Program-made: the position numbers and the translations under genes
Part shown: piece by piece, positions 2,879 through 31,923 of the stretch
Position numbering within the stretch: the stretch's first letter is position 1
Layout of the letters: every line of letters begins with the position of its first letter
The notes under the pieces: model-generated
The model's input: the letters and a program-made list of their open reading frames with translations, nothing else
Database searches by the model: none
Told to the model about the DNA's origin: nothing
Virus record (IMG/VR): IMGVR_UViG_3300023257_000061
Span: 1 to 37,243 of that record
Direction: 5' to 3' (one strand)
Source of the DNA: a virus
DNA: 37,243 nucleotides

Positions 2879-3585
2879 TATTTATCCTCTGTGTTTTGAG
2901 ATAACACCCAATCACAAACATCTTCATAATCTGATTTTAGAATTTTAGTTGTGGAGTCTATTTCATAAGTCAATGCAAGATGGTCTTTGATTTGTCCGTT
3001 TGTAACATCTCTTTCTTTAGACAAAGCAAACAATCTTTTTCTTTGCGGATCTGTTATAACATTGGAATTTGATACTCTTGCAGGTTCACTTGTTTTTTGA
3101 CTTGTTTCTTTTTTAGACGTTTTACCGCTCGCTTCATTACCATCATCATCATCATCAGGAGCTATGCCAACAATCGCACTTAATCCATAACGTCTGCCGT
3201 AAGTTAACGCAGAACCCAATCCTTGAGCGGTGTTTTTGTCTGGCTTAATTGCAATATGTCCTCTTATCCATTGACCTGATGAATGAGCAAGTGTTGTTGT
3301 TACAATAATTTCGCCATTGTTGCTTTCTGTCGTTTGAATAACTGCTAATTCGTTTTTAGATAATTGATTTCTGCAAGCTTTCCAAACCGAACTGAGGTCT
3401 GCATATTTTTTCTTAAAGAAAGGATTTAAAGAATCTTCTTTAGCTCCTTCAATTCCACCTTGCGCTTTAGATAAAGCTAGAACTAGCTTTCCTATTTCCG
3501 TTGATTGATTTTTTTCCTTTATTTCTATTTCATTAATTTTTTCTGGTAATTTTGTGCTGTCTTTGATATCATTATCGCTTATCAT
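2878..3585 (-). CDS. erf: ERF family single-strand annealing protein
   Basis: 235 residues from ATG 3585 with an AAAGGGAAAACTA binding site. The ERF core spans about 28-143: LNPFFKKKYADLSSVW (53-68), LAVIQTTES (80-88), and GLGSALTYGRRYGLSAIVGI (122-141), the last being the family hallmark. An Asp run (144-148) and a Ser/Thr/Lys linker lead to a C-terminal helical domain (about 178-230, DPQRKRLFALSKERDVTNGQ) found in many phage annealing proteins. It would pair complementary single strands during recombination-dependent replication or end joining. The neighbouring exonuclease, coiled-coil protein and HNH protein complete a recombination cassette. Confidence 0.92.
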   Translation of the reverse strand: MISDNDIKDSTKLPEKINEIEIKEKNQSTEIGKLVLALSKAQGGIEGAKEDSLNPFFKKKYADLSSVWKACRNQLSKNELAVIQTTESNNGEIIVTTTLAHSSGQWIRGHIAIKPDKNTAQGLGSALTYGRRYGLSAIVGIAPDDDDDGNEASGKTSKKETSQKTSEPARVSNSNVITDPQRKRLFALSKERDVTNGQIKDHLALTYEIDSTTKILKSDYEDVCDWVLSQNTEDK

Positions 3586-14900: not shown

Positions 14901-15341
14901 ACCCTTCAATATTGCATTATCGTAATAAGTACCAGCGGCAAGGTATATAACAACCTTATGGTCTATAAAGGATGGCAAAATATTATCATAAACATACTGT
15001 CTTGTTTTACATGGAGAAGCAACAATACCGCAAGTATCGTTATCAGTACCGGTGGTTGCTATATAAATGTCCATATCTGCTATTGTTTTGTCAACCATAT
15101 TTGGGGCAAATAAAAACCCCTGAATTTCAGCATCACCACAAATCAATTCATCAAGTTCAGAATCTAATCCTTCTGCCGTTAAACAATCGCCTATCGAAAA
15201 ATAATCTCCTGTGGGTGATTGAAGCCTCGTTGAAACGCTGTCATTATACATGAAATTGTCAATTACAGGACTTGCAAATGCCGTAGATGTAAAAGCAAAT
15301 GAAGCTAAAATAAATGATAATAATATTTTTTTAAATTTCAT
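11904..15341 (-). CDS. Secreted-type beta-helix protein, tailspike-like (1145 aa)
   Basis: ATG 15341 with a TTAAGGAGAACAAAT site. Residues 1-23 are a clear Sec signal (MKFKKILLSFILASFAFTST then AFA before Ser24). About 90-160 resembles the entry of pectate-lyase-like parallel beta-helices: DIYIATTGTDNDTCGIVASP, then VVIYLAAGTYYDNAILKGK. The remainder is beta-rich. The last 90 residues (SATYNILSTDYFISNQYTDT, VTLPAISTSNHGQVYIIKD) are a beta module commonly found at the end of phage fibre proteins. It could degrade or bind a surface polysaccharide, yet no catalytic residues can be named. A cleavable signal on such a protein is unusual for a virion component. Confidence 0.65.
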   Translation of the reverse strand: MKFKKILLSFILASFAFTSTAFASPVIDNFMYNDSVSTRLQSPTGDYFSIGDCLTAEGLDSELDELICGDAEIQGFLFAPNMVDKTIADMDIYIATTGTDNDTCGIVASPCKTRQYVYDNILPSFIDHKVVIYLAAGTYYDNAILKGKIIGEGSLKIMGHVIAIDDNGGAHFTATGGDDENADGRGEFVVAAAGWTPSDFAGKWLRVIESNSATAAIHEKYYPIKDNTADTITTTIVAFTPTATVTKFDVVDFDTFILGSTPDKPISPKNIVEIVDNIITSITSDSLDGLYYIQPLMYEALNIGESHGSGISINNSNILLSGIGFNKDTTELSTVVGDQAGVTQIVVDDTSNLRTGMLTTIGTNLYQSIQTIDDATHFTISGGAISVLNGDKITYYATKGIYSSSSNVLAYGIKTSGHVNGIATSANFSSVTIAGVNADFTDQYYDEKVYAAQALTNSVIYLQNYDVYGDGGDYINSLMYAYGAGTYAYLWKGRVDYVNRLTLAGGTGYAAQVATNAVYGSNINYFAKGIAGGFTLLTDQANITSAVSDYDIDDTSHATIYDSGDYVDINGKIDDDALAAASATILSNFRSKRLTSTAPYTMTSTPTVVAGLFEGQSLTLIGTSNEITLQDNAKLAGSLLSLKSDKDAVLGKGHWIEFVWLDIDGTYMWSEQSRFTNDIPFDANISAKNITSTASGEATAVTPEYSSGNVQLNVSAWDTDEAVAKTTGRGIRADGISGDSISSYFMMYNDVGDTLKIEETSSGAESWITFEGQSYGINLTSGGNSTPSPMLVHSGDAFGGDFAGGDTYLWGSAGSGTGADGNVHLGYDYENSVAQGSTYVHGLFDVTDETARTTSLVNVQAGSVATPVVTDQVAAHQSTLYSSGYGAPYLSNMYSVGTAAYSGVAGYLAVITPHASDAADSMIAGFQPFLTSDVGSATKSAVSLLEYSFGLGIMWDYVISSEVGANMRLLEPVDDANPNQIYGASEAESLIITENYKSGTQSLENVTLETKTDLVDADAGQYIFKVNEAEKLRIKDSGIKVVGGFTANITEVTSATYNILSTDYFISNQYTDTGAAAVTLPAISTSNHGQVYIIKDSDYNASGNTLTINKTGADTIDEAATATVTSDGASLSFMANNTTKNWEIF

Positions 15342-18715: not shown

Positions 18716-20491
18716 TTATGTTATATTGGTGACAATTATTCTTGAAGTGTCCCAAGTTGATATTTCATTAACTGCAACTGCTATATTAGCGTCATCATGT
18801 GAAGTTGTATCAATTTCTGCGTCTGGTTGTGAAAGGCCACTAGCACAAACATAATTTGACATTGGTGTCGGTGTTCCTGCTGCTGCTGCCGTAACTGTGA
18901 TTTCTCTTGCCGCCGTAACTGACGCAGTTGCAACTGTTGCTAGGGCTTGTATAGCTGTTGCTAAATCTGTCATTGTCTGGTTGTGAGTTGCATTAAAAGG
19001 CACTTGAGCAATCGCTACTCCTGCAACATCAAGGTCTATCGTATTTAAGGCCACAAAATCAGCGTCCATAGTTAAAGTCTGAACAAGTGCTATATTTGCA
19101 ACTGCAATCCTGAAATCAATATCATCAATTCCAATAACTTCATGTACAGCTTCGTATAATTCTGTAACGATAACATCATCACCAATACTAAAACCGGTTG
19201 TTGTATTTTCTGCGAAAGCAACAACATTAGTTTTTATTGAAGTTTCACCGCCTGTTGGAAAAGTTGAATTTACAACAATATCAACTTCAAGCCAAATTGT
19301 GATTGGCGTTGGCCTTGAAAAATAAATTGTATGGTCAAAATCCTGCGAATCTGTAATTACTTCTGACGAACTTCCATAAGTTTGTATTCCCGCAGCCTTA
19401 GTGTCCCAAATAGCCTCCGCTATATCCGCATCAACGCCATCCAAAACAACACATTCAATAGATTTAGCAGGTCTACCTGCTCCATCAACTACCATTGTAT
19501 CATTTTCATACACCAGCGCAGCAGTAACATCATCAATATCGAGTATTTCTGCTCTTATACCATCAACAGTAGCAGAACCCGGAGCGGCCAAAGTTTGCAT
19601 CCTTCTTATTCTTAATGCCGCATCTGTTTCAATATCGTTTCCTGTATCTATATCTAAAGGATTTGAAACGCTGTCCCATCCAACAACTATGGTTTCTATT
19701 ACTGTTAACGAACCAGATAATGCAGCTACAGCACCAGGCGTTTGAGCAATAACTTCAATATCTATGTTTGGCAATAATCCGGCTGTTGTTTCTGCAACCG
19801 ATATTGTTATCGGTGTTCCTACAATTTCTAATGAATTTGTATTACCTTCCAAAATAGCAACTTGTGGTTGTGAACCATCTGCGCCAGCAAAAGTAACTGT
19901 AAAACCAGCCGCAAAAGTTCCTGCTACTGTTACAGCAGATAACACACTCAAAGCATTTAAAGCGTTTTGTACCGCAATGGCCGCAGCGTTCCATGCTATG
20001 ACACCAGTTTCTTCACCATCAAAAATTAAAGTGAAAGACCCAGCGTCAGGAACAAAGCTAAATGTTATATCTTGAATTTCATCCGTTCCAGCACCTATTG
20101 TGCCAGCGGCTACTGTTTCAAATGTTAAATCAGAATTTCCACTTACTGAAATCACAGAAGCAATCGGAATCACAGTTGCCAACGTACCTTTTGCATTAAC
20201 ACTACCAGTTGAATATGTAGCGGCCAATCTTTCAATGCCTGTAAGACTAACAACCCAATCTAAACTAACGCCTGATGCTGTTTCAGGATACATAGCGTCA
20301 TAAAGAGCCTGTCCAAGTTCCCATAACAAAGCTTCTCGTTCTGCATTTATTCCAACTTCTTGACCAAGTACGCTTTCAGGTTGTAAATTAATACCATTAC
20401 CAAAAGCAGCCTTGAGAGAAGTTTCTTTTTCAAGTTTAACATCTTCCAATCGTTTTATAACAAATCCAGCATCTGTTACGCCATAAGCCAT
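18716..20491 (-). CDS. Baseplate J-like protein with two inserted domains (591 aa)
   Basis: ATG 20491 with a GAGGTCTAAT site. Core baseplate wedge protein J (P2/Mu gpJ family): N-terminal GVTDAGFVIKRLEDVK, LDWVVSLTGIERLAAT, then IDTGNDIETDAALRIRRMQT and LAAPGSATVDGIRAEILDID. Two extra domains interrupt it. Residues about 138-237 (GSFTLIFDGEETGVIAWNAA ... GFTVTFAGADG) form one type; residues about 470-565 (DADFVALNTIDLDV ... PFNATHNQT ... ASGLSQPDAEI) form another, also found in the sheath, neck and decoration proteins. J links tail tube and fibres and moves on contraction. Confidence 0.88.
   Translation of the reverse strand: MAYGVTDAGFVIKRLEDVKLEKETSLKAAFGNGINLQPESVLGQEVGINAEREALLWELGQALYDAMYPETASGVSLDWVVSLTGIERLAATYSTGSVNAKGTLATVIPIASVISVSGNSDLTFETVAAGTIGAGTDEIQDITFSFVPDAGSFTLIFDGEETGVIAWNAAAIAVQNALNALSVLSAVTVAGTFAAGFTVTFAGADGSQPQVAILEGNTNSLEIVGTPITISVAETTAGLLPNIDIEVIAQTPGAVAALSGSLTVIETIVVGWDSVSNPLDIDTGNDIETDAALRIRRMQTLAAPGSATVDGIRAEILDIDDVTAALVYENDTMVVDGAGRPAKSIECVVLDGVDADIAEAIWDTKAAGIQTYGSSSEVITDSQDFDHTIYFSRPTPITIWLEVDIVVNSTFPTGGETSIKTNVVAFAENTTTGFSIGDDVIVTELYEAVHEVIGIDDIDFRIAVANIALVQTLTMDADFVALNTIDLDVAGVAIAQVPFNATHNQTMTDLATAIQALATVATASVTAAREITVTAAAAGTPTPMSNYVCASGLSQPDAEIDTTSHDDANIAVAVNEISTWDTSRIIVTNIT
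18797..19084 (-). repeat. Shared virion insert domain, copy 1 (in baseplate J)
   Basis: Residues about 470-565 of the J protein. Landmarks: VQTLTMDADFV, NTIDLDV, VPFNATHNQTMTDLATAIQ, REITVTAAAAG, SGLSQ. Related at protein level to 27079-27363, 28455-28742 and 31285-31581; DNA similarity is modest. Confidence 0.85.
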
Positions 20492-20492
20492 A

Positions 20493-20849
20493 TTAGACCT
20501 CTATAATTTTATTAAAATCAATGTCGCCATCTTCTGAACGACATCGAAATTCAAAAGTTAATTCTCTAGTTCCAGTAAATTCTAAATTAAATTCTAACAA
20601 TTCTAATATCCCTGGTGTGTCTAAAATTATTGTCTTAAATGCAGCAGATACAGCCTGAAAATCAGGGTTTTTAACTAAGACATCTTGATAATAAGGCAAT
20701 CCAACCGTTTCATCTAAAAACCATTCGCCTAAAAACGTTGATAGACGTATCAATAAAGATTGTCTTTTAGATTCTAAACCAGAAGTTAAAGAAACCTCAT
20801 TATCTACAATCTCAATATCTCCTGTTGTTTCATCAAGTTTTAAATCCAT
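20493..20849 (-). CDS. gp25/W-like baseplate wedge protein (118 aa)
   Basis: Small baseplate protein between the 79-aa gene and J. It starts MDLKLDETTGDIEIVDNEVS, then RQSLLIRLSTFLGEWFLDET and VGLPYYQDVLVKNPD, the recognisable core of the GPW/gp25-like family that nucleates sheath polymerisation at the baseplate. Length is typical. A DUF2634 assignment is the nearest alternative. Confidence 0.8.
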   Translation of the reverse strand: MDLKLDETTGDIEIVDNEVSLTSGLESKRQSLLIRLSTFLGEWFLDETVGLPYYQDVLVKNPDFQAVSAAFKTIILDTPGILELLEFNLEFTGTRELTFEFRCRSEDGDIDFNKIIEV

Positions 20850-20850
20850 A

Positions 20851-21090
20851 TTAAACTATTCCTACGGCATCATGTCCATCGCCATGAGTATCTGCACCAC
20901 TACATTTTGCAAAACCTGTTATATGAGCAACCACAGTTGATGATATAGCTTCTGCTATCTCATCAGCCCATTTTTCAAGCGCATAATTTGGGTCATTCAA
21001 GTCGGTTAAAGTAACACTTTCCCATGTTCCTAAATTCGCTATAATGGCCGCTTTCATTGCTGTTTTTAATGTTGCTGAACTCATTGCCAT
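20851..21090 (-). CDS. Small baseplate-region protein (79 aa)
   Basis: ATG 21090 with TGAGGTATTAATT. Ala/Thr-rich helix at the N-terminus (ATLKTAMKAAIIANLG), a helix EKWADEIAEAISSTVVAHIT, and a His/Asp/Gly tail (GADTHGDGHDAVGIV). Similar small proteins lie beside spike genes in other phages; role unknown. The His-rich tail could bind metal. Confidence 0.6.
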   Translation of the reverse strand: MAMSSATLKTAMKAAIIANLGTWESVTLTDLNDPNYALEKWADEIAEAISSTVVAHITGFAKCSGADTHGDGHDAVGIV

Positions 21091-21125
21091 AATTAATACC
21101 TCATATCTATTTTACACTATCGAAG

Positions 21126-21800
21126 TTACGACTCCAAGAAACTTTTTAAATTAGTTTGGTCACTTGGAAACAACGGATGTTGCAAAGGTTGTAATCCAAT
21201 TCCTGTAACTGTTTTCGCTTCTTGTATGTGTGTTAAAATATCATTTAAAACTTTTATTAATTCATTCGTGCTATTTTGCACTTGAATATGTCCGTTTGGT
21301 TTTATTCTAAATTCTGTTCTACCACCGCCATCATTGCCATTTCGTATAATAATATCGTCACCATTATCAACAGGCACAGTATCGTTGAACGGATAACAAC
21401 CCGGATAAGCTATTGCATCTGATATCTGATGCTTTCTTACATCTTCTGGGTCAACTTCACCGCCTGATGTAAGCCATTTTTCAAGCGACCTGTCAGCAAT
21501 CCATAAAGTTACTTGGTCGTCTTTTTTAAGTGGTAAATGAATATATGCTTTACCGGCTCTAGGATGCGCCACAGGTACGTTATAAATAATAGGTGCTGAA
21601 ACTACGCTACCATCAGAATATTTCTTTTTAAATTGAGGTCTTACATCTGCCAACATTTTATCTTTATCATATTTTATAATAATAGCAGGAACACAAACTC
21701 TAAGATCATAAGCTGATTTTTCGCATGATTGCTTTATTACTTCCGCCCACGAAGGAGTAGCGGAACTTGTTTTTTTTACATCATTTATAAAATCTGACAT
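21126..21800 (-). CDS. Gp138-type baseplate spike protein (224 aa)
   Basis: ATG 21800 overlaps the hub stop. N-terminal OB-fold domain of the Gp138 membrane-piercing spike family: DLRVCVPAIIIKYDKDKMLA, DVRPQFKKKYSDG, APIIYNVPVAHPRAG, then HLPLKKDDQVTLWIADRSLE. A beta-structured tip follows (DDIIIRNGNDGGGRTEFRIK). This is the central spike that pierces the outer envelope, matching the role of P2 gpV. No lysozyme domain is fused. Confidence 0.82.
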   Translation of the reverse strand: MSDFINDVKKTSSATPSWAEVIKQSCEKSAYDLRVCVPAIIIKYDKDKMLADVRPQFKKKYSDGSVVSAPIIYNVPVAHPRAGKAYIHLPLKKDDQVTLWIADRSLEKWLTSGGEVDPEDVRKHQISDAIAYPGCYPFNDTVPVDNGDDIIIRNGNDGGGRTEFRIKPNGHIQVQNSTNELIKVLNDILTHIQEAKTVTGIGLQPLQHPLFPSDQTNLKSFLES

Positions 21801-22618
21801 TATGCGGCCTCACATTTCGTTTTAAAAACATTTCCATGTGAATCGCCTTTGTGTTTAACTGTGCTTATAGTATAAATTCCATTTACAAACTTGCTAACTA
21901 TTTTAACTCTGCGTCCGGGTCTTAATGTAGGATATAAAAGTGTTTCAAATTCAACTCCTTCTTCTGTCTTTTCAGGAATATTAATTAATCCAGTTTTTTC
22001 GCTTAATTCTACGATTGAATCTGTAGTACCAGATGCTTGAGGTGTTATTTGAACAGTTTCATCTTGTATAGACCATTTTAAATCAAGTTTTTTAGTTAAC
22101 ATATCGAGATTATCCCTGACATTACCTTCTAATGACAAACCATTGCTAAATTTAAAATCAGTAATTCCTAATTTGCTTGAAAAAGGTAATTTCATTGCAG
22201 AACCTAAATCGTCTATTGCTTGTTTTATACTAATTCCGGGAGGATAGCCTTTATCAAGTTTGGCGTGTCTGTAAGCATTATCACCATCCCCAATTTCAAG
22301 CGTTGATATAATATCAACATTATTTTTCTTATGAATTGTTTTTGTAATATTTCCTTGAAAAATAGTTGCTGTTGTGTTCTCATATCCAGCTTGCAATATT
22401 ATCCTAGTTTTTTTATCTTCAAGTAATCCTCGTGTTGTAGCTGATAAATTATAGACTTTTATTTCTAATTGATTTGTATTTGATTCGCTATTTTTTTTAG
22501 CATCAAAACTTATACGCAACCCATCTAATAATTTCGATTCACCTTCGCCTTGAATTATCGTCAATGACACTTTGCGAAGATATAAATTATTTACATCAGT
22601 TGTTAATATGTCTGCCAT
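21800..22618 (-). CDS. Baseplate hub protein (272 aa)
   Basis: Starts MADILTTDVNNLYLRKVSLT with TAATG coupling. Hub-like (T4 gp27/P2 gpD type) beta-barrel signs: NQLEIKVYNLSATTRGLLED, RIILQAGYENTTATIFQGNI, GISIKQAIDDLG, NLDMLTKKLDLKWSIQDE, then FETLLYPTLRPGRRVKI near the end, which is typical of phage XkdQ/gpD-like hubs. Placed between Dit-like/plug genes and the spike, as expected. Confidence 0.75.
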   Translation of the reverse strand: MADILTTDVNNLYLRKVSLTIIQGEGESKLLDGLRISFDAKKNSESNTNQLEIKVYNLSATTRGLLEDKKTRIILQAGYENTTATIFQGNITKTIHKKNNVDIISTLEIGDGDNAYRHAKLDKGYPPGISIKQAIDDLGSAMKLPFSSKLGITDFKFSNGLSLEGNVRDNLDMLTKKLDLKWSIQDETVQITPQASGTTDSIVELSEKTGLINIPEKTEEGVEFETLLYPTLRPGRRVKIVSKFVNGIYTISTVKHKGDSHGNVFKTKCEAA

Positions 22619-22938
22619 TATTCAGATTCCTCATATAATAACAAAGATTGGTCACCAAATGATTCTTTAGTTGCTTCTAATTCGTTTTCAGTAGCATCAA
22701 AAAGCAATAATAATCCGGGTGGTAAATTCAACATCTTAAATCTTTTAAGCATAGCAAAATTTATATTTAAAGGCACACCCATTACTATTGGGACTTCATC
22801 AGCATCCATTACATTAACATGCCAACGTTCAAGACGTTCATTGTAAGTGAACTCAAAAACATAAGTGCTATCCTCCAAATCAGTTCTTAATTTTGAAGCA
22901 TAATTTTTATTGTCTATCGGTATTTGTCTTATATCCAT
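22618..22938 (-). CDS. Baseplate plug-like protein (106 aa)
   Basis: Start unclear: ATG 22938 (MDIRQIPID) is used; a TTG at 22956 would add six residues and overlap the upstream stop. Neither has a good binding site. Motifs YVFEFTYNERLERWHVNVMD and GVPLNINFAMLKRF match the small plug proteins (DUF6983-like) that close the hub in many myoviruses. Lies between the Dit-like and hub genes. Confidence 0.7.
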   Translation of the reverse strand: MDIRQIPIDNKNYASKLRTDLEDSTYVFEFTYNERLERWHVNVMDADEVPIVMGVPLNINFAMLKRFKMLNLPPGLLLLFDATENELEATKESFGDQSLLLYEESE

Positions 22939-22952
22939 ATTATTTGAACCAA

Positions 22953-23576
22953 TCAAAAATTTTTCTTAAAAAAATCAAAAACTTTTTGCAAACTTGTTCT
23001 TTTAGTTGTACCTGTAACAACATCGGAATCAGCAGACAAAGGACTACTGGGCGGCACTACGTCAGAAGTCTTTTTGCCTTTATCAACTTTAGCTTTTAAT
23101 TCAACTTCAACATTTTTAGTTTTAACAATTTCAATTTGCTGTAATTCTGCTGTAAAGGATATTGATTTACCAGTTTGCGCCGTTCTGTTAACTTGAAAGT
23201 TCTTTAAAATCATGTTTTTATAAACTCTCAACCCAGTTACAACGTCAAATGGCTCACGACTATCCCTTAACTTTAAAATTTTAGCATATTCATCTTGCGA
23301 CCTTGAAGTTTTACCGAAAACTTTACTTAATCCATAAATGTTATCTATAAGTGCGAAAGTTATAGGCGTATCGCTTATTATTCCCTGCATTGTCATGCTT
23401 AAAGGTAAATTTCTAACATGGTCTGTTATATCAGCACCATCTTCAATCGGGTTAGTTGATATTTCAGACGCAGCATTATGAACTTCACTTACAGACGCAT
23501 CAACAGTAACGTTGCCAATTTTAGCTTTTTTAATGCTGTAAATAAAATTAAATAATTTTGTATCTGTAAGTGCCAT
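22953..23576 (-). CDS. Dit-like tail protein (207 aa)
   Basis: ATG 23576 overlaps the tape-measure stop. The N-terminal 150 residues have the Dit-like N-terminal domain pattern: EISTNPIEDGADITDHVRNL, then PLSMTMQGIISDTP, AKILKLRDSREPFDVVTGLR, and SISFTAELQQIEIVK. The C-terminal 50 residues are a Lys/Ser-rich tail (GTTKRTSLQKVFDFFKK) without the LysM domain often seen in relatives. Connects tail tube end to the hub. Confidence 0.75.
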   Translation of the reverse strand: MALTDTKLFNFIYSIKKAKIGNVTVDASVSEVHNAASEISTNPIEDGADITDHVRNLPLSMTMQGIISDTPITFALIDNIYGLSKVFGKTSRSQDEYAKILKLRDSREPFDVVTGLRVYKNMILKNFQVNRTAQTGKSISFTAELQQIEIVKTKNVEVELKAKVDKGKKTSDVVPPSSPLSADSDVVTGTTKRTSLQKVFDFFKKNF

Positions 23577-25168
23577 TAATAACTTCCTTCTTTAACATTT
23601 CGGGATGTGTTTCTACGTTCTCGCCTATCTTGTTCTGATATTTTATTTGCTAAATCTTGATTATTATTATCAGGTGAAGCATAAACTGTAATGTTGGTTG
23701 TATTGTTAACACTACCACCTGCTGTCAATGGTGTGTTGCTTCTTTTACCACCTAAAATATCGCCTAACATATCTTCTTGCAATACAGATTCAGAAATTGG
23801 GTATCTATTTTTTCCACTAAATGCGTTTAAAGCCGACTGTGGTTGAATGTTTAAAGCTTCTGCCCAATTAGAACGTGTAGAACCTAACTTTTCAAAAAAT
23901 GATTTAGGTTTATGTTTAACTAAATCAGTTTCTACAATCGGCATTCCAGTTATAAATCTCAAAAATTTAAGCAGTTCTTTGACGCTAGACGTTACCTTCA
24001 TCACATCTTTTGCTAATTTTCCAAAAATAGATTCTTCACCTTTGAAAGCACCATAAATATCACCAAGTACCAATAAAACAAATGTCAATGCAACAGCCAA
24101 CGCTATATATTCAGCATATAATAATCCCTTGGCTATTATTAATTTGCCAGTAAGAGATAACATTTTAGCTGCTAAGGTTGTAAATAAACGCCCAACACTT
24201 AGAAATGCCATCATTACATGAGCGCCTATTAAAAATGAAATTGCACCTGCAAGAAGAACTATCGCATTTTTAAGACCTCCAACAACACTTGTAATGCTTT
24301 TTATCATTGGATAAACCATCTTTGACATAAACCACCACATTGACTTCATGGCTTTTACAAAATCTTTCACAAACTTGACTAATTTTGTTTTTATAAGTTT
24401 TTTATTAGCATCATGCCAATCAAGAAATGCCAATAATATACTTTTAAGTGTAGGCAATAACTCATCACCCATTTGAATTGATAATATTTGTAATGTATCT
24501 TGAAAGTTAGACCATAAACCAAGCAACGTTTTCGATTGTTTTATCATCAAATTTTCAAATCTACCACCAGCACCGGTCATACTTGCAAATGCTTCTTCAA
24601 CATCTTTAAATTTAACCTTACCTGCCGACACTAAATCTTGTATAGAATCTTCTGCTACACCCATGTTTTTAGCTAAAGTTGAAGCTAATCCAACGCCAAG
24701 AACATTAAAATCTCTTAATTCTCTACCTGTTAATTTTCCCTGTGTTTTAACTTGACCAAAATTCAATGCAATCCTAGCTAATGGTTGAGATACACCCGCT
24801 GAAACATCGCCTAGTGATTTTAATGTAGGCAATAATTTATCAACCTCTATACCCATTGCTAATAATTGTTTTGAAGATTTGAATACACCTGTTATTGTGA
24901 AAGGTGTCTTTGCGGCAAATGATGTTAAATCTTCCATCACTTCTTTTGCTTTTTCTGCACTACCTAGCATCGTTTCAAAAGCAACTTTGATTTGTTCCAT
25001 CTCACCGGCTTTTTTAGCAAGGAAAACTACACCTGCACCTATGCCAAAAACAGCGGCAGACGCCATCAAAGCAGAACGTCTGATAGTTCTCATGCCTTTA
25101 TCGTAATTTCTTAAAGCATTTTTATCTACTTTAAATCCAAGGCGAGTTATTAATTCTTTAACTATCAT
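23576..25168 (-). CDS. Tail tape measure protein (530 aa)
   Basis: ATG 25168 overlaps the frameshift chaperone stop (ATGA). N-terminal tape-measure domain: AGEMEQIKVAFETMLGSAEK, then SFAAKTPFTITGVFKSSKQL and SLGDVSAGVSQPLARIALNF, TQGKLTGRELRDFNVLG. Hydrophobic segments at about 295-320 and 345-372, as in proteins that enter the host membrane. At about 0.15 nm per residue, a 530-residue tape predicts a tail near 80 nm, short for a myovirus. The C-terminal 40 residues (NNTTNITVYASPDNNNQDLA) are the usual end. Confidence 0.9.
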   Translation of the reverse strand: MIVKELITRLGFKVDKNALRNYDKGMRTIRRSALMASAAVFGIGAGVVFLAKKAGEMEQIKVAFETMLGSAEKAKEVMEDLTSFAAKTPFTITGVFKSSKQLLAMGIEVDKLLPTLKSLGDVSAGVSQPLARIALNFGQVKTQGKLTGRELRDFNVLGVGLASTLAKNMGVAEDSIQDLVSAGKVKFKDVEEAFASMTGAGGRFENLMIKQSKTLLGLWSNFQDTLQILSIQMGDELLPTLKSILLAFLDWHDANKKLIKTKLVKFVKDFVKAMKSMWWFMSKMVYPMIKSITSVVGGLKNAIVLLAGAISFLIGAHVMMAFLSVGRLFTTLAAKMLSLTGKLIIAKGLLYAEYIALAVALTFVLLVLGDIYGAFKGEESIFGKLAKDVMKVTSSVKELLKFLRFITGMPIVETDLVKHKPKSFFEKLGSTRSNWAEALNIQPQSALNAFSGKNRYPISESVLQEDMLGDILGGKRSNTPLTAGGSVNNTTNITVYASPDNNNQDLANKISEQDRRERRNTSRNVKEGSY

Positions 25169-25808
25169 TTTTTGCCTCTTGCGTTTTTAGCTTCATTATT
25201 CGCTTTATCGGTGGCATTATCTCTAGCATCAAGCACATCATTAGCATCCATCAAATCTATAAGCGACCAATGTGTTTCTATTTCTTGCAAGGTTGCTATG
25301 CGTTCTAATATGCAACGCCAAACCAACCAAGGAGGACTATTATCTATCTCGCTACTATCTTTTGCTTCTTTGAATTGTTTACTTCTGCTCGCCGTAAGCC
25401 CTGTGTTGCTCCGGCGAGTTCGCCGAAAAAATCGGCATATTGAAAGCTAAGAATCGCCTTTAAAACTTTGAATAAATGACTAAATTCACCAGCAAAATCT
25501 AAATCAAATTGAATTGTTCTATGTTCATTTCCTGATATGACTTTCGTGGTATGCAAAATATCATTTACTAAACCAATGACAATATCCTCGTCCAGTTGAT
25601 TCATAACAGACTGTATCATTTCGCTAATAATGTTAGGGCTAACTTCTTCATTCATTTTTTCTTCTGAACCGCTTAACATAGCAAGCATACCCAAAGGCGC
25701 ACCTGCATATTTAGCTAATTTAGTTAAAATCTTCAATCCTTTAGTCGCAGGGTATAAAGAAGTCATGTATTTTTTGTCATCTATTTCAAAATTTATAGGT
25801 TCTCTCAT
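25165..25808 (-). CDS. Tail assembly chaperone, frameshifted long form (about 214 aa)
   Basis: The short form is translated 25808-25344. A -1 shift at 25431-25425 joins codon 128 (after ADFF) to a second frame that runs 86 more codons to the TGA at 25165-25167, which overlaps the tape-measure ATG. The added part starts RRTRRSNTGL and contains SPPWLVWRCILERIATLQEI then ETHWSLIDLMDANDVLDARD, the recognisable conserved segment of phage chaperone extensions. As with lambda gpG/gpGT, the short form coats the tape measure and the long form recruits tube subunits. The second frame has no start of its own in a suitable place, and without the shift 170 bases would be empty. Confidence 0.88.
25344..25808 (-). 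CDS. Tail assembly chaperone, short form (154 aa)
   Basis: ATG 25808 with AAGGGGATAAA. Starts MREPINFEIDDKKYMTSLYP then ATKGLKILTKLAKYAG; contains NIISEMIQSVMNQLDEDIVI and FDLDFAGEFSHLFKVLKAIL near the end. The pattern and position between tube and tape-measure genes are those of myophage tail chaperones. The zero-frame end (QGLRRAEVNNSKKQKIVAR) comes after the slippery site and is lost in the long form. Confidence 0.85.
   Translation of the reverse strand: MREPINFEIDDKKYMTSLYPATKGLKILTKLAKYAGAPLGMLAMLSGSEEKMNEEVSPNIISEMIQSVMNQLDEDIVIGLVNDILHTTKVISGNEHRTIQFDLDFAGEFSHLFKVLKAILSFQYADFFGELAGATQGLRRAEVNNSKKQKIVAR
25388..25431 (-). promoter_or_regulatory. Programmed -1 frameshift signal
   Basis: On the minus strand, slippery heptamer T-TTT-TTC (25431-25425) in the right phase, spacer GGCGAA of 6 bases, then a perfect 7-bp stem CTCGCCG (25418-25412) with CGGCGAG (25394-25388) around a 17-base loop. 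A competing stem CGGCG/CGCCG overlaps it. Confidence 0.85.
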
Positions 25809-25822
25809 TTTATCCCCTTATT

Positions 25823-26254
25823 TTAGTTGCTACCATGTGTAGAAATTAGATTATCAGTTCTTAAAACCCATTCTCTTTCAGTTGCATCACTATCATAATT
25901 AACTGTTGGTTCTTTTTGAACCCATGCTGATTCAGCTGCACTTAAAGAAATGGTTGTAATCCCAGAACCATCTTTTACAGCAAATGGGAATATTCCAGCA
26001 TTGCCATATTCATCTAATTTTCTAAACGCATCAAGAATCACGTTTGATGGGCTAGATTGCATTAATCTAATTGTAATCGTTGCGCTATGGTCATTTGATT
26101 TAGTTCTTACACCTTCGCCATCTGTACCTGTTTTATAATTAAACAAGTCAGAATCTTTTTCTACTGTAATCATAGAACCTTCTGCAAAATGTGATAGAAC
26201 AAAAGCTCCACAAACGACACTAACTTTTTTTGGGTCATATGTTTTAACTGCCAT
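25823..26254 (-). CDS. Tail tube protein, DUF3277 family (143 aa)
   Basis: ATG 26254 with AAAGGAGAATTATC. Start MAVKTYDPKKVSVVCGAFVL then SHFAEGSMITVEKDSDLFNY and SDHSATITIRLMQSSPSN-like region, ending EREWVLRTDNL. These are the family landmarks of the DUF3277 tube protein, which pairs with DUF3383 sheaths. Lies directly after the sheath gene. Hexamers would stack into the inner tube. Confidence 0.88.
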   Translation of the reverse strand: MAVKTYDPKKVSVVCGAFVLSHFAEGSMITVEKDSDLFNYKTGTDGEGVRTKSNDHSATITIRLMQSSPSNVILDAFRKLDEYGNAGIFPFAVKDGSGITTISLSAAESAWVQKEPTVNYDSDATEREWVLRTDNLISTHGSN

Positions 26255-26277
26255 GATAATTCTCCTTTATTTATATT

Positions 26278-27630
26278 TTATAGTTCAACTCTGCCCGATA
26301 TAACAACTTTATGGATTGCACCCTGTAACGTTGCTTGCCATGTTACGTTATTCAATGTTCTAGTTCCTTTGTCAGTAGTAGAAACATCTTTCACTAAAGG
26401 AACGCCGACTAAAAATGGCTCTCCGTCAAAAGTGTCTGGGTCAGGTGTTAATAAACCGACCGATATTCCGTTTAGAATTGTTTTTCTAACAAGATTTTCT
26501 ATGATAGCAATTCCTGCGTCTGTATAAGCTATTTTATCAGAAGTAACTAACTCTTGATAAATGTTTTCTTGCATCCTAGCCGTCAACCAATCTATTCCAC
26601 GCATGATATCCAAATATTCACCTGATGCTACAGTTGCTTCTTCTGTAATATCAATTCCACCAGCTTCAACCATGAGGTTTGCATTTTTTGCCAAAATTGC
26701 GTTGATTTCTGTAGTGCTTAATGAATTAGAACCTGTAATACCGGATAGTGTTTTGAACATCCACGTTGCACTTCCGGGATCTGTTGGTAACATTCTTCCA
26801 AACCAAGCTGCATCTGGGAAATCAGCAGGAGTTTCATTAAAAATTATCGAAGTTCTATCGTAATTTGCTGCGCTAAGTATATAAGCTATATCAGTTGTTT
26901 TAGTTGCATCGTAAATATCTACTGCGTCTGAACAACTTATAAACAATTTAGGCATAGCTTCTATTGATTTTGCTGTTACTCCAACAACAACTGCTGTTCT
27001 GTCCATACATAGACAACCATACCAATCATCATCAACAAGCCTAATTGCTGTGATATCTTCTGCCATGCCAACGTTAGGTGTAGTTGCCGTAGTAACTGCC
27101 GCTGCTTGAGTTAGTCCGCCTGTTACCAAAACACCGCTTATTGTTACTGGAACACCAGCCACCGCCGCAGTTACAGTAATAGTATGAACGCCATCAGATA
27201 CCGCAGTTGTTACACCATCAGTTGCTTGAATTAATGCCGCAAAATCTGTCAATGTTTGAGCATTTGTTGCATTAAAAGGCGTTGCTGCCAATGCTGTTCC
27301 GTCAATTGAGCAATCAATCGAGTTGGCTAAAATAATGTCAGCATCAAATACGATTGTTTGTATTTGAGAAACCGCTGCTAGTCTTTGTGTAATTTTAACT
27401 TCTTCTGGTGCTGGTGTTTGAGAAAACAAAGCATTTGCCGCCTTGTACTCATCATTTCCAGACGTAAAATCAACTGCAACATCTGTCATATTGTTATAAG
27501 TTCTTACGAGTCCAGAAGCAAAGCTTCCTGTCGTTCCGAAAATCATTGCTACGCCAAATCCTGCCTGTGTTACTGTTCTTGTTGACCTAGTAACCGATAC
27601 ACTCACAATCGTTGAGATAGGTACTGTCAT
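26278..27630 (-). CDS. Tail sheath protein, DUF3383 family, with insert (450 aa)
   Basis: ATG 27630 with AAAGGAGAATTATT. Sheath landmarks: VSVTRSTRTVTQAGFGVAMI, VRTYNNMTDVAVDF, EYKAANALFSQTPAPEEVKI, then AIRLVDDDWYGCLCMDRT, FNETPADFPDAAWFGRMLPT, and the C-terminal PFLVGVPLVKDVSTTDKGTR. Residues about 90-184 interrupt the usual VKI...AIRLVDDDWYG passage with the shared insert domain also present in J, the neck protein and the decoration protein. The insert would project from the outer sheath surface. Confidence 0.9.
   Translation of the reverse strand: MTVPISTIVSVSVTRSTRTVTQAGFGVAMIFGTTGSFASGLVRTYNNMTDVAVDFTSGNDEYKAANALFSQTPAPEEVKITQRLAAVSQIQTIVFDADIILANSIDCSIDGTALAATPFNATNAQTLTDFAALIQATDGVTTAVSDGVHTITVTAAVAGVPVTISGVLVTGGLTQAAAVTTATTPNVGMAEDITAIRLVDDDWYGCLCMDRTAVVVGVTAKSIEAMPKLFISCSDAVDIYDATKTTDIAYILSAANYDRTSIIFNETPADFPDAAWFGRMLPTDPGSATWMFKTLSGITGSNSLSTTEINAILAKNANLMVEAGGIDITEEATVASGEYLDIMRGIDWLTARMQENIYQELVTSDKIAYTDAGIAIIENLVRKTILNGISVGLLTPDPDTFDGEPFLVGVPLVKDVSTTDKGTRTLNNVTWQATLQGAIHKVVISGRVEL
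27079..27363 (-). repeat. Shared virion insert domain, copy 2 (in sheath)
   Basis: Residues about 90-184 of the sheath protein. Landmarks: IQTIVFDADII, NSIDCSIDG, TPFNATNAQTLTDFAALIQ, HTITVTAAVAG, VTGGLTQA. Confidence 0.85.
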
Positions 27631-27642
27631 AATAATTCTCCT

Positions 27643-28161
27643 TTATGGTAAATCTATTTCTTGGTTTATAATATGTCCATCAGCTTCACCGTCTATGTTT
27701 ACATGTTCGATTAAGCCTACGTTATCTGTTATTTCTCTTGCATAATTTATCATTACATCCATTTGCGCACGTTCTTCAAAATCAGTTTCAAGAAGTCCTG
27801 TTAAATTCTGTATATTTCCAACTGACATTAACGATATTCCATAAGTGTTCCATAATAAACTATGCGTTTCTTCTTTGAACATTGAGTCTCTAGCTAATTC
27901 CATTTCTTCTAAAGCGCTTGTTCCGTATATGTTAAGCGATATCGTTCCACCTCTTACACCTTTTAATGTAGCCACGCCTAATGCACTGACTGGCCCACGA
28001 TAATCGTCAAAGCCAACTCTGCCACTGTCATTATAACGAATCGTTCCGTATGGCCTTGCAGGTGTTTTAGGTTGTGCTTGTTCTTCAAACACCCAAGTAA
28101 AGCCCAATTCTTGATTGAGCCATTTTTTCATTGCAAGTTTTATTATATTTACACTAGCCAT
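27643..28161 (-). CDS. Neck terminator-like protein, LIC_12616 type (172 aa)
   Basis: Starts MASVNIIKLAMKKWLNQELG; includes VFEEQAQPKTPARPYGTIRY and RDSMFKEETHSLLWNTYGIS, then TDFEERAQMDVMINYAREIT, which are the family marks of the myophage neck or tail-terminator protein near DUF3383 sheath genes. It overlaps the upstream neck gene by one base. Confidence 0.78.
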   Translation of the reverse strand: MASVNIIKLAMKKWLNQELGFTWVFEEQAQPKTPARPYGTIRYNDSGRVGFDDYRGPVSALGVATLKGVRGGTISLNIYGTSALEEMELARDSMFKEETHSLLWNTYGISLMSVGNIQNLTGLLETDFEERAQMDVMINYAREITDNVGLIEHVNIDGEADGHIINQEIDLP

Positions 28162-28805
28162 TAGCCATTAACCTCTGCCATGAAAGTTTTATAGTGTTGA
28201 AGATTTCCATCAACCCATCTTTCAACACTTTGTACTTCAAATCTAGTATCATCATAAGCGACCACATCAGCCCTCTTAGAATCGTTTTCTTTAACTGTAT
28301 AAAGTCTTGTGGTAGTATATCCTTTGACAAATCTCTTAGTTCTTTCGCCTTGTGCAAGAATTTCAAGCTCTTTTCCATTCAAAGGCTGCACACTCATCAC
28401 AATATCAAAAGTTGACGTTGCTCCTTCTTGATAAACACCATCAATAAAACCGCCTGACTGCGTTATGCTGCCCTCCGCTTGAGAAAGGCCACCAGTTATC
28501 ATGATTCCATTGATTAATAGGTCAGAACCCGCTTCAACGGCCAGAATAGTTACCTCTCTTGCGCCTGTGATGATTGCGGAGTCAATTTTAGATGATGATT
28601 CGATTTCTACAGCTAAATCTATTAATGTTTGAGCATGAGTTACGTTAAATGGAATTGAAGTAATTGCTGTTAAGTCAATATCAAGGTCAATGCTATTGCC
28701 GATAATAAAATCAGCATCAAAAGTAAGCACAACTGTTTGAACAGAAGAACCATATCTTGTAACAGTCAATGTTTGTCCAAATTCATTTATTAAATCAATG
28801 CTCAT
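28161..28805 (-). CDS. Head-tail connector/neck protein with insert (214 aa)
   Basis: ATG 28805 overlaps the stop of the upstream gene (ATGA). The base protein is short: 1-21 (LINEFGQTLTVTRYGS) and 118-214 (GGFIDGVYQEGATSTFDIVM, VQPLNGKELEILAQGERTKR, RFEVQSVERWVDGNLQHYKT), a pattern I know from a small phage neck protein in which VTRYGS is followed almost directly by the DG stretch. Residues about 22-117 are the shared insert domain. The fused point is very clear. Confidence 0.78.
   Translation of the reverse strand: MSIDLINEFGQTLTVTRYGSSVQTVVLTFDADFIIGNSIDLDIDLTAITSIPFNVTHAQTLIDLAVEIESSSKIDSAIITGAREVTILAVEAGSDLLINGIMITGGLSQAEGSITQSGGFIDGVYQEGATSTFDIVMSVQPLNGKELEILAQGERTKRFVKGYTTTRLYTVKENDSKRADVVAYDDTRFEVQSVERWVDGNLQHYKTFMAEVNG
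28455..28742 (-). repeat. Shared virion insert domain, copy 3 (in neck protein)
   Basis: Residues about 22-117. Landmarks: VQTVVLTFDADFII, NSIDLDID, IPFNVTHAQTLIDLAVEIE, REVTILAVEAG, ITGGLSQAEG. Confidence 0.85.
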
Positions 28806-29308
28806 TTAATTTTAACCTCATAATCTATAGAATTTCTTAATCTGCCTGTGTCAATCAATGGCCTAGAAGATTTTTTCCTAGCTTTTGTCATAGGTTTATT
28901 AGGTTGAAAACGTCCTTGTGTGAAAATAGTCTTTACGTTCTTTTGATGAAATAATCCTAATTTCCCTAACGCTCTTTCAACGCTAATTTGACGTTTATAA
29001 ATTCTATTAATCAAAATTTTCTTATAACCATTTATCAAATTCTTTTTAGTATCAAAAGCTTGCTTCATAAATGGTCTAGCTGGTATATGATTTGGGTGTG
29101 AACCAAATTCATGTATCGTTGCCAACTTAACCATGTTCATTGTCAAAGAACTTTCATTCCTAACCTTTTTACCCTTAACACTTCCACGAGTAGTGTATTT
29201 CTTTTTGCCACCGCCCGATATAACTCCAATTTTCACATAAGAATTATCAATGTCTTTCAAACTTTTAAGGATTTTATTCCATCCTCTATCAATAATTTTT
29301 ACACTCAT
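28802..29308 (-). CDS. Tail completion protein, gpG/HK97 gp10-like (168 aa)
   Basis: ATG 29308 overlaps the DUF4054 stop (ATGA). Motifs: SYVKIGVISGGG, LATIHEFGSHPNHIPARPFM, and the C-terminal SRPLIDTGRLRNSIDYEVK, the usual end of Mu gpG-like virion morphogenesis proteins. Very basic. Acts at the head-tail joint. Confidence 0.82.
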   Translation of the reverse strand: MSVKIIDRGWNKILKSLKDIDNSYVKIGVISGGGKKKYTTRGSVKGKKVRNESSLTMNMVKLATIHEFGSHPNHIPARPFMKQAFDTKKNLINGYKKILINRIYKRQISVERALGKLGLFHQKNVKTIFTQGRFQPNKPMTKARKKSSRPLIDTGRLRNSIDYEVKIK

Positions 29309-29682
29309 GTGTTGAAATCCTGATTAAAATTTATAACCAATGGTGTTGTAACAATCTCTTTTCTTAAAGCTAAATATCTTCTACCATAAACAGTAGAACC
29401 TAAGCTGCTATCATAAACAGTGATATTAGGCTCTGCAAATTGTTTTTCTAAATCGCCAACTTTTTTCTTAGTGACACTTCCAGATGCGCCTGAACCAGTG
29501 CCAAGCCCTGAAATAGATAGAAGATGTGCGGTATAATAAACTGTTGCTATATCAGCTTTATCACCCCATGTACTAGTGTTTATAGAAAGCACAGCGTCAG
29601 CAATAAAAATATTAATGGTTGCAGGTGCTACGGATGCAAAATCTGCAAATCTTGTTGTTATGTCTGACGCTGTAATGCTCAT
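29305..29682 (-). CDS. DUF4054 head-tail connector protein (125 aa)
   Basis: ATG 29682, starting MSITASDITTRFADFASVAP. Hallmarks: TINIFIADAVLSINTSTWGD, DIATVYYTAHLLSIS, then GASGSVTKKKVGDLEKQFAE and LGSTVYGRRYLALRKE. Helical adaptor that binds the portal, HK97 gp6-like in position. Length is typical. Confidence 0.85.
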   Translation of the reverse strand: MSITASDITTRFADFASVAPATINIFIADAVLSINTSTWGDKADIATVYYTAHLLSISGLGTGSGASGSVTKKKVGDLEKQFAEPNITVYDSSLGSTVYGRRYLALRKEIVTTPLVINFNQDFNT

Positions 29683-29696
29683 CTATTAACCTCATT

Positions 29697-30146
29697 TTAA
29701 TCGTTATCTTCTGCGTCATCAATTTCTGTTTCGTGGATGTCTTTCATTTTAGCTTCTATAGCATTAACAACACCTTTACGCTCTTTACCTACATTTTCTT
29801 CTTCACGCCATTTCAGCAACAATTCAAGGTCGTTTACGTTCTCAATTAATTTTTTACATTCAACAACGCTGTAAGATTCCAAAGCTGGTTTAGAAATTTC
29901 TTCAACTTCATCATCTTTCTTTTTACCTTTTGCGCCTTTTTGACCTAAAATTTTAATGTATTCATCGTCAATCATTTTTTTAAGCATTGGATGTTCTTGT
30001 GTACTATTTCCATTTTTTATATAGTAAACACTTTCCCAATCTGCTTTTCTAATTTCATTGATACCAGTTTTCAACCAAACGGGTCCACATCTGTGAACGT
30101 TTTTACGTTTTGGATGTTTGTATTCAATTAAAAGAATCGCTGCCAT
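29697..30146 (-). CDS. Hypothetical protein after major capsid (149 aa)
   Basis: ATG 30146 with AAAGGAGATAATTT. The N-terminal part (YKHPKRKNVHRCGPVWLKTG) is beta-like; residues about 75-149 are charged and helical, ending in an acidic tail. Proteins of this kind sit between capsid and connector genes in many phages; role unknown, possibly an adaptor or head stabiliser. Confidence 0.65.
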   Translation of the reverse strand: MAAILLIEYKHPKRKNVHRCGPVWLKTGINEIRKADWESVYYIKNGNSTQEHPMLKKMIDDEYIKILGQKGAKGKKKDDEVEEISKPALESYSVVECKKLIENVNDLELLLKWREEENVGKERKGVVNAIEAKMKDIHETEIDDAEDND

Positions 30147-30173
30147 AAATTATCTCCTTTTATTAATCTGTGA

Positions 30174-31118
30174 TTATGTGTCTAAACCATCATAAATTGC
30201 TATTGCCAATGGTTTATAAATTACAACGCCACCAAATGCTTCATGTGCAGGAACTTTAAACTCCATCATTTCTTGCTGTGGTGAAAACAATTCGTAATCC
30301 TGTGCAATCATCATTTCTAATTTGTCTGGATTTCTATCATACACAACCATAATATCAGTTGCATAAAGAGCGTTGTTTGCGGCATCACATTCATTCAATG
30401 ATACAACATCTGTGATATATTCGTTTGTTTCTAGGAAAAAGCTAAGAACTGTGCTGTCACTATTAGGAATTTTCAATGTAGCAATATAACCACGCATACG
30501 AGGTGATAAAATCATGGTGTTTGGTGCTTCAACTTCGTTTGTAAGTTCAATAATGCCAAGAACAGCGTCATTCATATCACGAAGAATTTGCTCTGCTGTT
30601 TTATCTTCCCATTCAGTTGATGCTCCAACGCCATCTGCTGCAACTGTACCAGTAGTTATGTTAGTATTAGAGAAAAAGCCCGGAACGTTATAAGAATCAT
30701 CACCAAACCAAGCTGCTGTATTTTCTTTACGAGCAACTGCTTCTCTGGATGAATTAGCTCTACGTTGTTCAAGGTTTTTACCAGCCATTCTTGCATTGCG
30801 GATATCTTGAATAGAATATCTAAAAGATGAACCCATGCCTTTTACTTTAGTCGTGTTTTCTTTCCCTTTGATGTCAGCGGTTGGGAAATCTTTAGCATAG
30901 TTTGAAATCCATTTTGCGATGCCTACTGATTCGTATTCTTCCCAAGTAATAGTCTTTGCGCCAGCATTTACTTCAAAGTTTGTTGGCAATAAATCTCTTA
31001 CTTTAATTCTTGGCAATTCAATATCTTTTGATTGTGCCATTTTATATTCTAATTCTCTTTCAAACCAGATACTTTCATCAGCATCAAGTCTATCTTTAAA
31101 AATGTTTTTATTAGACAT
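30174..31118 (-). CDS. Major capsid protein, DUF2184 family (314 aa)
   Basis: ATG 31118 with AAAGGAGGCTTAG. Family landmarks in order: FERELEYKMAQSKDIELPRI, VNAGAKTITWEEYESVGIAK, SNYAKDFPTADIKGKENTTK, GMGSSFRYSIQDIRNARMAG, LEQRRANSSREAVARKENTA and AWFGDDSYNVPGFFSN, ending MEFKVPAHEAFGGVVIYKPL. HK97-fold shell subunit. It follows the decoration and protease/scaffold genes. Confidence 0.92.
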   Translation of the reverse strand: MSNKNIFKDRLDADESIWFERELEYKMAQSKDIELPRIKVRDLLPTNFEVNAGAKTITWEEYESVGIAKWISNYAKDFPTADIKGKENTTKVKGMGSSFRYSIQDIRNARMAGKNLEQRRANSSREAVARKENTAAWFGDDSYNVPGFFSNTNITTGTVAADGVGASTEWEDKTAEQILRDMNDAVLGIIELTNEVEAPNTMILSPRMRGYIATLKIPNSDSTVLSFFLETNEYITDVVSLNECDAANNALYATDIMVVYDRNPDKLEMMIAQDYELFSPQQEMMEFKVPAHEAFGGVVIYKPLAIAIYDGLDT

Positions 31119-31146
31119 CTAAGCCTCCTTTTATCTTATAAATTAA

Positions 31147-31923
31147 TTATGGTAAGTTAATTTCTACAACTGCGTTTTCACCTGATGCTGCTCCGATAAC
31201 ATATCTTGCGTATGTAAAAGCAAGTGCTGTGCCAGTATCGGCATCTGTTCTAAATTTGCCTCTTGCGGCATATTCAATCCCGACAACTGTTTCAGTAACA
31301 ACAATTCCAGCTTGACTTACGCCAAGTGTAATACCTTCATCTGTCAAAACTGTTACAGCGGCGTCAACCGTTATTACAGAAGTGATAGTAATCGTTCTAT
31401 TTCCTGCACCACCAACAACGGCTGTTGCTACACTTGCTTGAGCCTGAATTTGAGCTGCAAATAAATTCATTGTGCTTAAATGTGCTGCGCCATCATAAGT
31501 TTCAGTTAAAACGTTTCCATCAACTGTTACTGTGATAACATTAGCCGCTATAATATCGGCATCAAGAACGAAAGTTTGAACTTGCGCACGACCATCATAT
31601 CTTACATAAACATCGTCATCTGGTGTAACAGCTTCTTCAACTTCAACATACATTCTACCAGAAGTCATAACTGAAACGCATGATTTAACTGGATATGCGT
31701 CTAAATTTTCTTCATTGTCCTTAATGCCAATGCCCCAAAGAACTGCGCTAGCATTGTCTGGCAATTTAACGCCATCTTCATCACCTGTAATTTTTTCAAC
31801 GGCCTGACCATAAGGAATAACGATTGCTGGGTTATTCATAGACTGTTGTTTGTAACCTGACATATCATATAACTGGCCTTTAAGACCTGATGTCATTTCT
31901 AATGGATATGCTGTTTGTACCAT
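31147..31923 (-). CDS. Decoration/cement protein (DUF2190/Gp24-like) with insert (258 aa)
   Basis: ATG 31923 with a strong AGGAGGTTTTAC site. The base protein: 1-114 (YPLEMTSGLKGQLYDMSGYK, NPAIVIPYGQAVEKITGDED, VSVMTSGRMYVEVEEAVTPD then DVYVRYDGRA) and 214-258 (GIEYAARGKFRTDADTGTAL, ARYVIGAASGENAVVEINLP), as in structural cement proteins found between protease and capsid genes. The shared insert domain occupies about 115-213. Being on the capsid surface, the insert would be displayed in many copies. Confidence 0.83.
   Translation of the reverse strand: MVQTAYPLEMTSGLKGQLYDMSGYKQQSMNNPAIVIPYGQAVEKITGDEDGVKLPDNASAVLWGIGIKDNEENLDAYPVKSCVSVMTSGRMYVEVEEAVTPDDDVYVRYDGRAQVQTFVLDADIIAANVITVTVDGNVLTETYDGAAHLSTMNLFAAQIQAQASVATAVVGGAGNRTITITSVITVDAAVTVLTDEGITLGVSQAGIVVTETVVGIEYAARGKFRTDADTGTALAFTYARYVIGAASGENAVVEINLP
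31285..31581 (-). repeat. Shared virion insert domain, copy 4 (in decoration protein)
   Basis: Residues about 115-213. Landmarks: VQTFVLDADIIAANVITVTVDG, then a diverged helix (AAHLSTMNLFAAQIQAQ), NRTITITSV, GVSQAG. The most diverged copy. Confidence 0.75.

Follow-up and report, generated by a model that had tools for sequence, protein, structure and literature searches.

Four virion proteins encoded in the window that we analysed, a 37,243-base IMG/VR record of an E217/Pam3-like contractile phage, each contain one copy of a homologous module of about 90 amino acids (type A), and all four copies lie on the minus strand. We consider it reasonably probable that this is one autonomously folding module that is inserted into the loops of virion proteins, exchanged as a cassette and displayed on the outside of the particle as a coat. 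Comparisons of module and host-core sequences across relatives establish homology of the copies, insertion at many sites in at least six host families, nesting, and cassette exchange between sheath genes that are otherwise inherited vertically. The structural genes of the window (terminase, portal, a Mu F-like protein, protease, cement, major capsid, neck, sheath and baseplate) are on the minus strand. Two proteins without a Pfam match, of 1145 aa (11904–15341, minus strand) and 557 aa (10231–11904, minus strand), adjoin the tail genes and are possible adhesins or fibres.

The baseplate wedge protein J (18716–20491, minus strand; PF04865 at 2e-10, phrog_6 at 1.1e-57) contains the module at residues 470–565, a C-terminal site at core position 472 (18797–19084; HMM E 2e-29). 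In the tail sheath of the DUF3383 family (26278–27630, minus strand; PF11863 at 2.7e-32, phrog_205 at 1.9e-94; solved relatives 9zdk_S and 9c39_H), it occupies residues 90–184 at core site 93 (27079–27363; HMM E 1e-23). The third host is a collar/neck protein (28161–28805, minus strand; phrog_939 at 1.2e-17, with a weak Pfam match to E217_gp28 at 0.0013), with the module at residues 22–117 (28455–28742), and the fourth is a capsid cement protein of the E217 gp24/Pam3 gp6 family (31147–31923, minus strand; PF22758 at 2.4e-17, phrog_563 at 7.6e-18), with the module at residues 115–213, core site 118 (31285–31581). An earlier note, made from the sequence alone, had proposed a shared domain in these four segments, naming two of the hosts a neck and a decoration protein; these are the relative of the E217 collar gp28 and the cement protein, respectively. 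The proposal was borne out by tblastn against the window with the sheath copy as query, which matched the other three copies and nothing else at 44–46% identity and E of 1e-11 to 1e-22: neck, 46% and 8.9e-22; baseplate J, 46% and 1.6e-18; cement, 44% and 2.9e-11. No fifth copy was found in the window by profile search. The motifs listed in that note (V/IQT, DAD, N-x-I, PFNxT in three copies, an amphipathic helix, R/H-x-I/V-T and G-L/V-S/T-Q) are all visible in the alignment. A metal-binding reading of the DAD...N motif was rejected, as D9 and D11 are missing from several clear members, and the motif looks structural.

The fold was modelled once, for the neck copy, with 45 other copies supplied as alignment (a 46-copy alignment). 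The model (pLDDT 93.6, pTM 0.86) has the order E-E-H-E-E-E-E, with six main strands and one 13-residue helix (H36–48) between strands 2 and 3, and the module is probably an autonomously folding alpha/beta unit of some 90 residues. Given their 44–46% identity to the sheath copy, the other copies in the window are expected to share the fold of the neck copy. No Pfam or PHROG family corresponds to the module, since none matched more than 2 of the 46 copies. Neither Big_1, Big_2, I-set nor fn3 was among the Pfam matches listed for the 46 copies at E≤0.1. Flagellin_IN (PF07196) touched a single copy of the 46 (E 0.026) and did not reach its curated cut-off. In BFVD, one viral protein, A0A7S5REQ2, was a good match (TM 0.86, E 3.9e-7).

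Foldseek against the PDB returned no match at E≤0.001. Its top matches were accessory domains in sheath or wedge chains of solved phages (A-1(L) 8kee, PhiTE 9cba, the Agrobacterium phages Milano 8fqc/8fop and 7-7-1 9rku, and Bas63 9ndy), with TM of 0.53–0.67 normalised to the module and in the same types of host protein. It is likely that these accessory domains share the fold of the module. They differ from it in their 12–18% identity, in E values above 0.001 and in their restriction to the sheath or wedge in those entries, and what we could consult of their texts does not describe them as a shared mobile module. Flagellin D2/D3, the Bxb1 capsid and T7-type tail proteins came next, with TM mostly of 0.4–0.67. 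Flagellin D2/D3 and the variable domains of FliD resemble the module structurally (8erm, TM 0.50) and are also exposed and variable; kinship with flagellin was not adopted, as it would rest on resemblance of fold. The flagellotropic phage 7-7-1 and Milano, both Agrobacterium phages, stand among the top structural matches ahead of flagellins, which could be a coincidence of a common fold. The C-terminal domain of the Bxb1 capsid (9d9w) gave a weak match in both sequence (E 0.09) and structure (TM 0.48); this domain and the type-B domain described below lie outside the sequence family of the module, to which homology is probable.

Carriers were gathered from public viral contigs by module scans and iterated profile searches, so that the sampling was led by the module itself. 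The scans gave 94 carrier ORFs (about 95 with later additions), including near-duplicates from one phage: 41 cement proteins, 31 DUF3383 sheaths, 10 baseplate J proteins, 6 neck proteins, 2 T4-type sheaths, 2 tail terminators, 1 SU10-adaptor-like protein (L029; Pfam E 1.6e-5, just under the cut-off) and 1 decoration-like protein (L014; phrog_5707). A third tail-terminator carrier (L108) was added later, and one carrier (L136:2162–3109) had no family match. Every carrier that could be assigned by PHROG or Pfam is a virion protein, and the hosts belong to at least six families; among the approximately 95 carriers, none was a capsid shell, portal, tube, tape-measure or replication protein. A scan of bacterial and archaeal genomes found the module in two metagenome-assembled contigs only. 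One contig binned as a Nanoarchaeota archaeon (L061, JAGLZG010000078.1) encodes a module-bearing phage cement protein and is probably a mis-binned phage contig, or else points to an unusual host. Window-type copies matched no cultured phage in tblastn, and a search with another copy found five cultured Rhizobium phages that carry the module in their sheath: RHEph12, RHph_N46, RHph_I42, RHph_N28_1 and RHph_N42. These sheaths, of which that of RHEph12 (L100, 17158–19479) contains two modules (E 4e-25 and 2e-8), are genuine members and the sole cultured carriers found; they are of a different type from the sheath of the window and belong to 193-kb phages. The remark in the earlier note that environmental phages have similar domains was correct. 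We found no description of the module in the literature covered, which mostly excludes subscription journals.

Insertion sites were mapped by excising the modules and then aligning the host cores. This yielded five sites in the sheath (41–43, 93–95, 122–123, 148 and 155), three in cement (39, 61–62 and 118), four in baseplate J (169, 340, 355 and 472), one in the neck protein (23–24) and one in the terminator (32–33). Relatives leave the sites used in the window's sheath, cement and baseplate J empty or have something else there, and the reverse holds for the sites that the relatives use. In cement, the PF22758 match covers residues 2–122, up to the insert; site 118 is empty in about 32 relatives, which have the module at core site 61–62. 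When baseplate J is aligned with its relatives, the core extends to either side of the insert, and occupancy of the sites is reciprocal between relatives; in two of them, L038 and L047, the site used in the window is empty and the module is found elsewhere. The profile of PHROG 939 matches only residues 119–208 of the neck protein, after the insert, and at 126 aa it has no room for the module. For cement, neck and baseplate J, the claim that these are insertions rather than part of each family's core thus held, given relatives without the module at the window's site or with it elsewhere and a collar profile too short to contain it. For the sheath, it needs qualification, as the slot there existed already and the module occupies it in place of other domains or in alternation with them.

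The occupant of sheath site 93 differs between phages. Besides the module, it may be a resident domain, an unrelated beta domain or, in L162, a type-B domain, and sheaths with cores of about 360 aa have none. In solved and environmental DUF3383 sheaths, the resident domain is normally present, and the solved ones align through the region. The unrelated beta domain (HNL..G..V.V.GF...YNGTFEI) fills the slot in L040, L041, L042, L044, L045, L052 and L065, phages that carry the module in their cement protein. The type-B domain (SFTLIFDG...), overlooked in the earlier note, is also inserted in the window, at residues ~137–241 of baseplate J (19769–20083, minus strand). It matches the C-terminus of the major tail protein family phrog_10909 and the sheath family phrog_2839, and its profile–profile comparison with the module gave P 1.3e-4 and a probability near 50%. 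It occurs at the same place in baseplate J of L009, L023, L031, L039 and L050 and resembles C-terminal domains of major tail proteins. Module and resident domain gave P 1.7e-4 and a probability of 49% in hhalign, and the resident profile, from a small set, picked up some module copies at 1.5e-7. By these profile comparisons, the module, resident and type-B domains are probably distant homologues. The module is not confined to the sheath slot, being present at many sites and in many proteins, and it is found together with the resident domain in L030, in L039 and in the nested clade. In about eight long sheaths (L148, L165, L121, L120 and others), a complete module interrupts another one, whose two parts match profile positions 1–27 and 26–91; this outer module in turn interrupts a resident domain, behind which comes a second resident domain. 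Similarly, the L094 and L171 sheaths and the L094 baseplate J have a module inside the resident domain at an equivalent loop. Among 18 long sheaths that form one clade and carry up to three copies each, the nested arrangement is simply inherited.

The history of the module differs from that of its hosts. On the module tree (93 columns), host labels require 25 changes where 7 is the minimum, and several well-supported clades mix hosts: cement copies of the window, L010, L016 and L021 with sheath copies of L010, L016 and L018 (support 100/99); the L058 sheath copy with the L053 cement copy (99/95); the L071 cement copy with sheath site-123 copies (98/94); and the L094 baseplate J copy with L092 and L094 sheath copies (99/93). 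A single clade of all cement copies was rejected (AU p 0.0007), as was one of the cement site-62 copies alone (p 0.0002), while a single origin was not rejected by the AU tests for the sheath site 93 copies of the window lineage (p 0.27), sheath site 123 (p 0.245) or baseplate J (p 0.085). Copies in different hosts of the same genome are more similar than expected (0.415 vs 0.370±0.011 after shuffling, with 0 of 2000 shuffles reaching the observed value), to which shared genome composition could contribute. The mixed clades and this within-genome similarity support, but do not prove, the suggestion in the earlier note that the domain spreads between structural genes; as far as these comparisons go, transfer would be between structural genes of one genome, through duplication or gene conversion. 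Some cross-gene pairs of modules within a genome have 68–74% DNA identity and none with 90% or more was seen, so such transfers would be old. Exchange within sheath genes appears as a change along the gene: the window's sheath is 78% identical to that of L106 in the module and 56% in the core, and 46% and 73%, respectively, to that of L026. This disagreement between sheath module and core trees indicates that the module is an insertable and exchangeable cassette. Neck and C-terminal baseplate J modules, unlike those of sheaths, evolve with their hosts. The window also encodes an ERF-family single-strand annealing recombinase (2878–3585, minus strand), as do the L106, L109 and L079 records. An ERF annealase was discarded as the general cause of the spread, being present in only 3 of 30 records.

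From the host families and sites, we infer that the modules are exposed on the exterior of capsid, neck, sheath and baseplate; the cement protein of E217, for instance, forms 180 copies arranged as trimers that protrude from the capsid surface (PMC10329688). Display outside the particle appears, on the sequence data, the likeliest role. Tailed phages would insert the module of about 90 residues into loops of virion proteins, and duplication or gene conversion would copy it from one structural gene to another within a genome. Each particle would then bear perhaps several hundred modules on the exterior of its capsid, neck, sheath and baseplate, where they would serve for display or as a coat; they would set the properties of the surface or make weak contacts multivalently, the part proposed for Ig-like domains of other phages. 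The best placed alternative, which we nevertheless consider unlikely, is structural reinforcement, in which the module mainly contacts neighbouring subunits (cement–cement, sheath–sheath or wedge–fibre) and stabilizes the particle, with exposure incidental. Its presence in cementing and sheath proteins would suit such a role, and in the wedge of cyanophage A-1(L), one copy of an insertion domain (81–180) fits a cleft of the hub and the second holds a long tail fibre (PMC10966104). The structural matches of the module include A-1(L) chains, though the matching part may not be that insertion domain. Against this, no single interface can be common to three sites in cement, five in the sheath and four in the wedge, and at sheath site 93, the module is interchangeable with unrelated domains or with nothing.

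Composition bears on what a displayed module might do. Across 141 modules and their host cores, W+Y is 1.0% vs 4.8%, K+R 2.1% vs 7.2% and Thr 14.9% vs 8.4%, and by composition alone, W+Y is lower in the module than in the core in 140 of the 141; the net charge of the module is about −7.4, that is, acidic. Typical sugar-binding surfaces are unlike this, and an acidic, inert, Thr-rich and aromatic-poor composition suggests a coat, spacer or weak protein-contact role rather than a classical sugar-binding face. Binding of sugars or mucus, offered as an example in the earlier note, consequently finds no support, with few aromatic and basic residues and no conserved binding motif in the modules. A module that is an adhesin proper, binding a host, glycan or mucus ligand and so keeping the phage near its host, is about as doubtful as reinforcement: many copies per virion would provide avidity, and phage Ig-like domains such as those of T4 Hoc are thought to act in this way (PMC9022992, PMC7602432), but the very low content of these residues and the lack of a conserved exposed motif weigh against it.

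The sheaths also show how persistently the module is retained. We fetched 80 sheath loci by their C-terminal core, the best 80 of 361, with a query built from carriers, so that the proportion is not a population frequency: 36–37 of the 58 N-terminally complete sheaths contain the module (the L144 match is weak). On the tree of sheath cores, the module states need 12 changes, with at least 3 for site 123 alone, and the 18 nested sheaths form one clade. Neutral or selfish spread, in which loops tolerate a compact and well-folding insert and recombination copies it without advantage to the phage, would fit the variable sites, the nesting, the cassette exchange and the lack of a conserved functional site. 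We regard it as quite unlikely, given that the module is confined to outward-type virion proteins, was gained repeatedly in unrelated phage lineages, is kept throughout a clade of 18 sheaths in up to three copies and is carried by more than half of those 58 sheaths from the best 80 of 361 loci. An ancestral origin, with the region present from the start in each host family and later lost elsewhere, is very improbable: solved DUF3383 sheaths do align through it, and the domain resident there is probably distantly related to the module, yet differing sites within a family, reciprocal occupancy, nesting and module–core discordance contradict it for cement and baseplate J and leave it at most the sheath slot, as a slot and not as the module sequence.

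The closest parallel to the displayed cassette that we favour is found in the phage Ig-like domains (Big_1, Big_2, I-set and FN3), which are promiscuous and occur in five classes of virion proteins (PMC9022992, PMC7602432; for the work of Fraser et al. 2006 we rely on the account in these two articles). Like the module, they are accessory domains in several classes of virion proteins (tail fibre, baseplate, tail tube, capsid and Hoc) with mostly unsettled function. Ig-like domains are exposed in high copy number, while the exposure of the module is deduced from its hosts and sites. They are all-beta sandwiches of 7–9 strands, whereas the module packs a helix with strands and has no Pfam Ig match; its main hosts are instead cement, DUF3383 sheath, wedge, collar and tail terminator, and internal insertion at many sites, nesting and cassette exchange are features of the module. 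The text of a large survey of phage domain mosaicism does not mention sheaths (PMC10684548). The module thus works like the promiscuous phage Ig-like domains but is not one, as both the fold and the Pfam tests fail. We give about even credence to the broader reading of a non-Ig 'wardrobe', in which structural proteins would have evolved standing slots for the cassette, for distant relatives of it or for unrelated domains, all open to swapping, to stacking and to copying between the genes of one genome, so that capsid, neck, sheath and baseplate wear one shared coat.

A family model of the module would annotate many unnamed regions of environmental phages. Insertion, empty sites, swaps and nesting can all be read in the sequence, and with cultured Rhizobium carriers, among which RHEph12 is the most accessible experimental system, the function of the domain becomes directly testable. 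Knowledge of the Ig-like domains of phages goes back to 2006, with their function still unsettled, and a second, unrelated module in the same part would suggest a general selective need to dress the virion surface.
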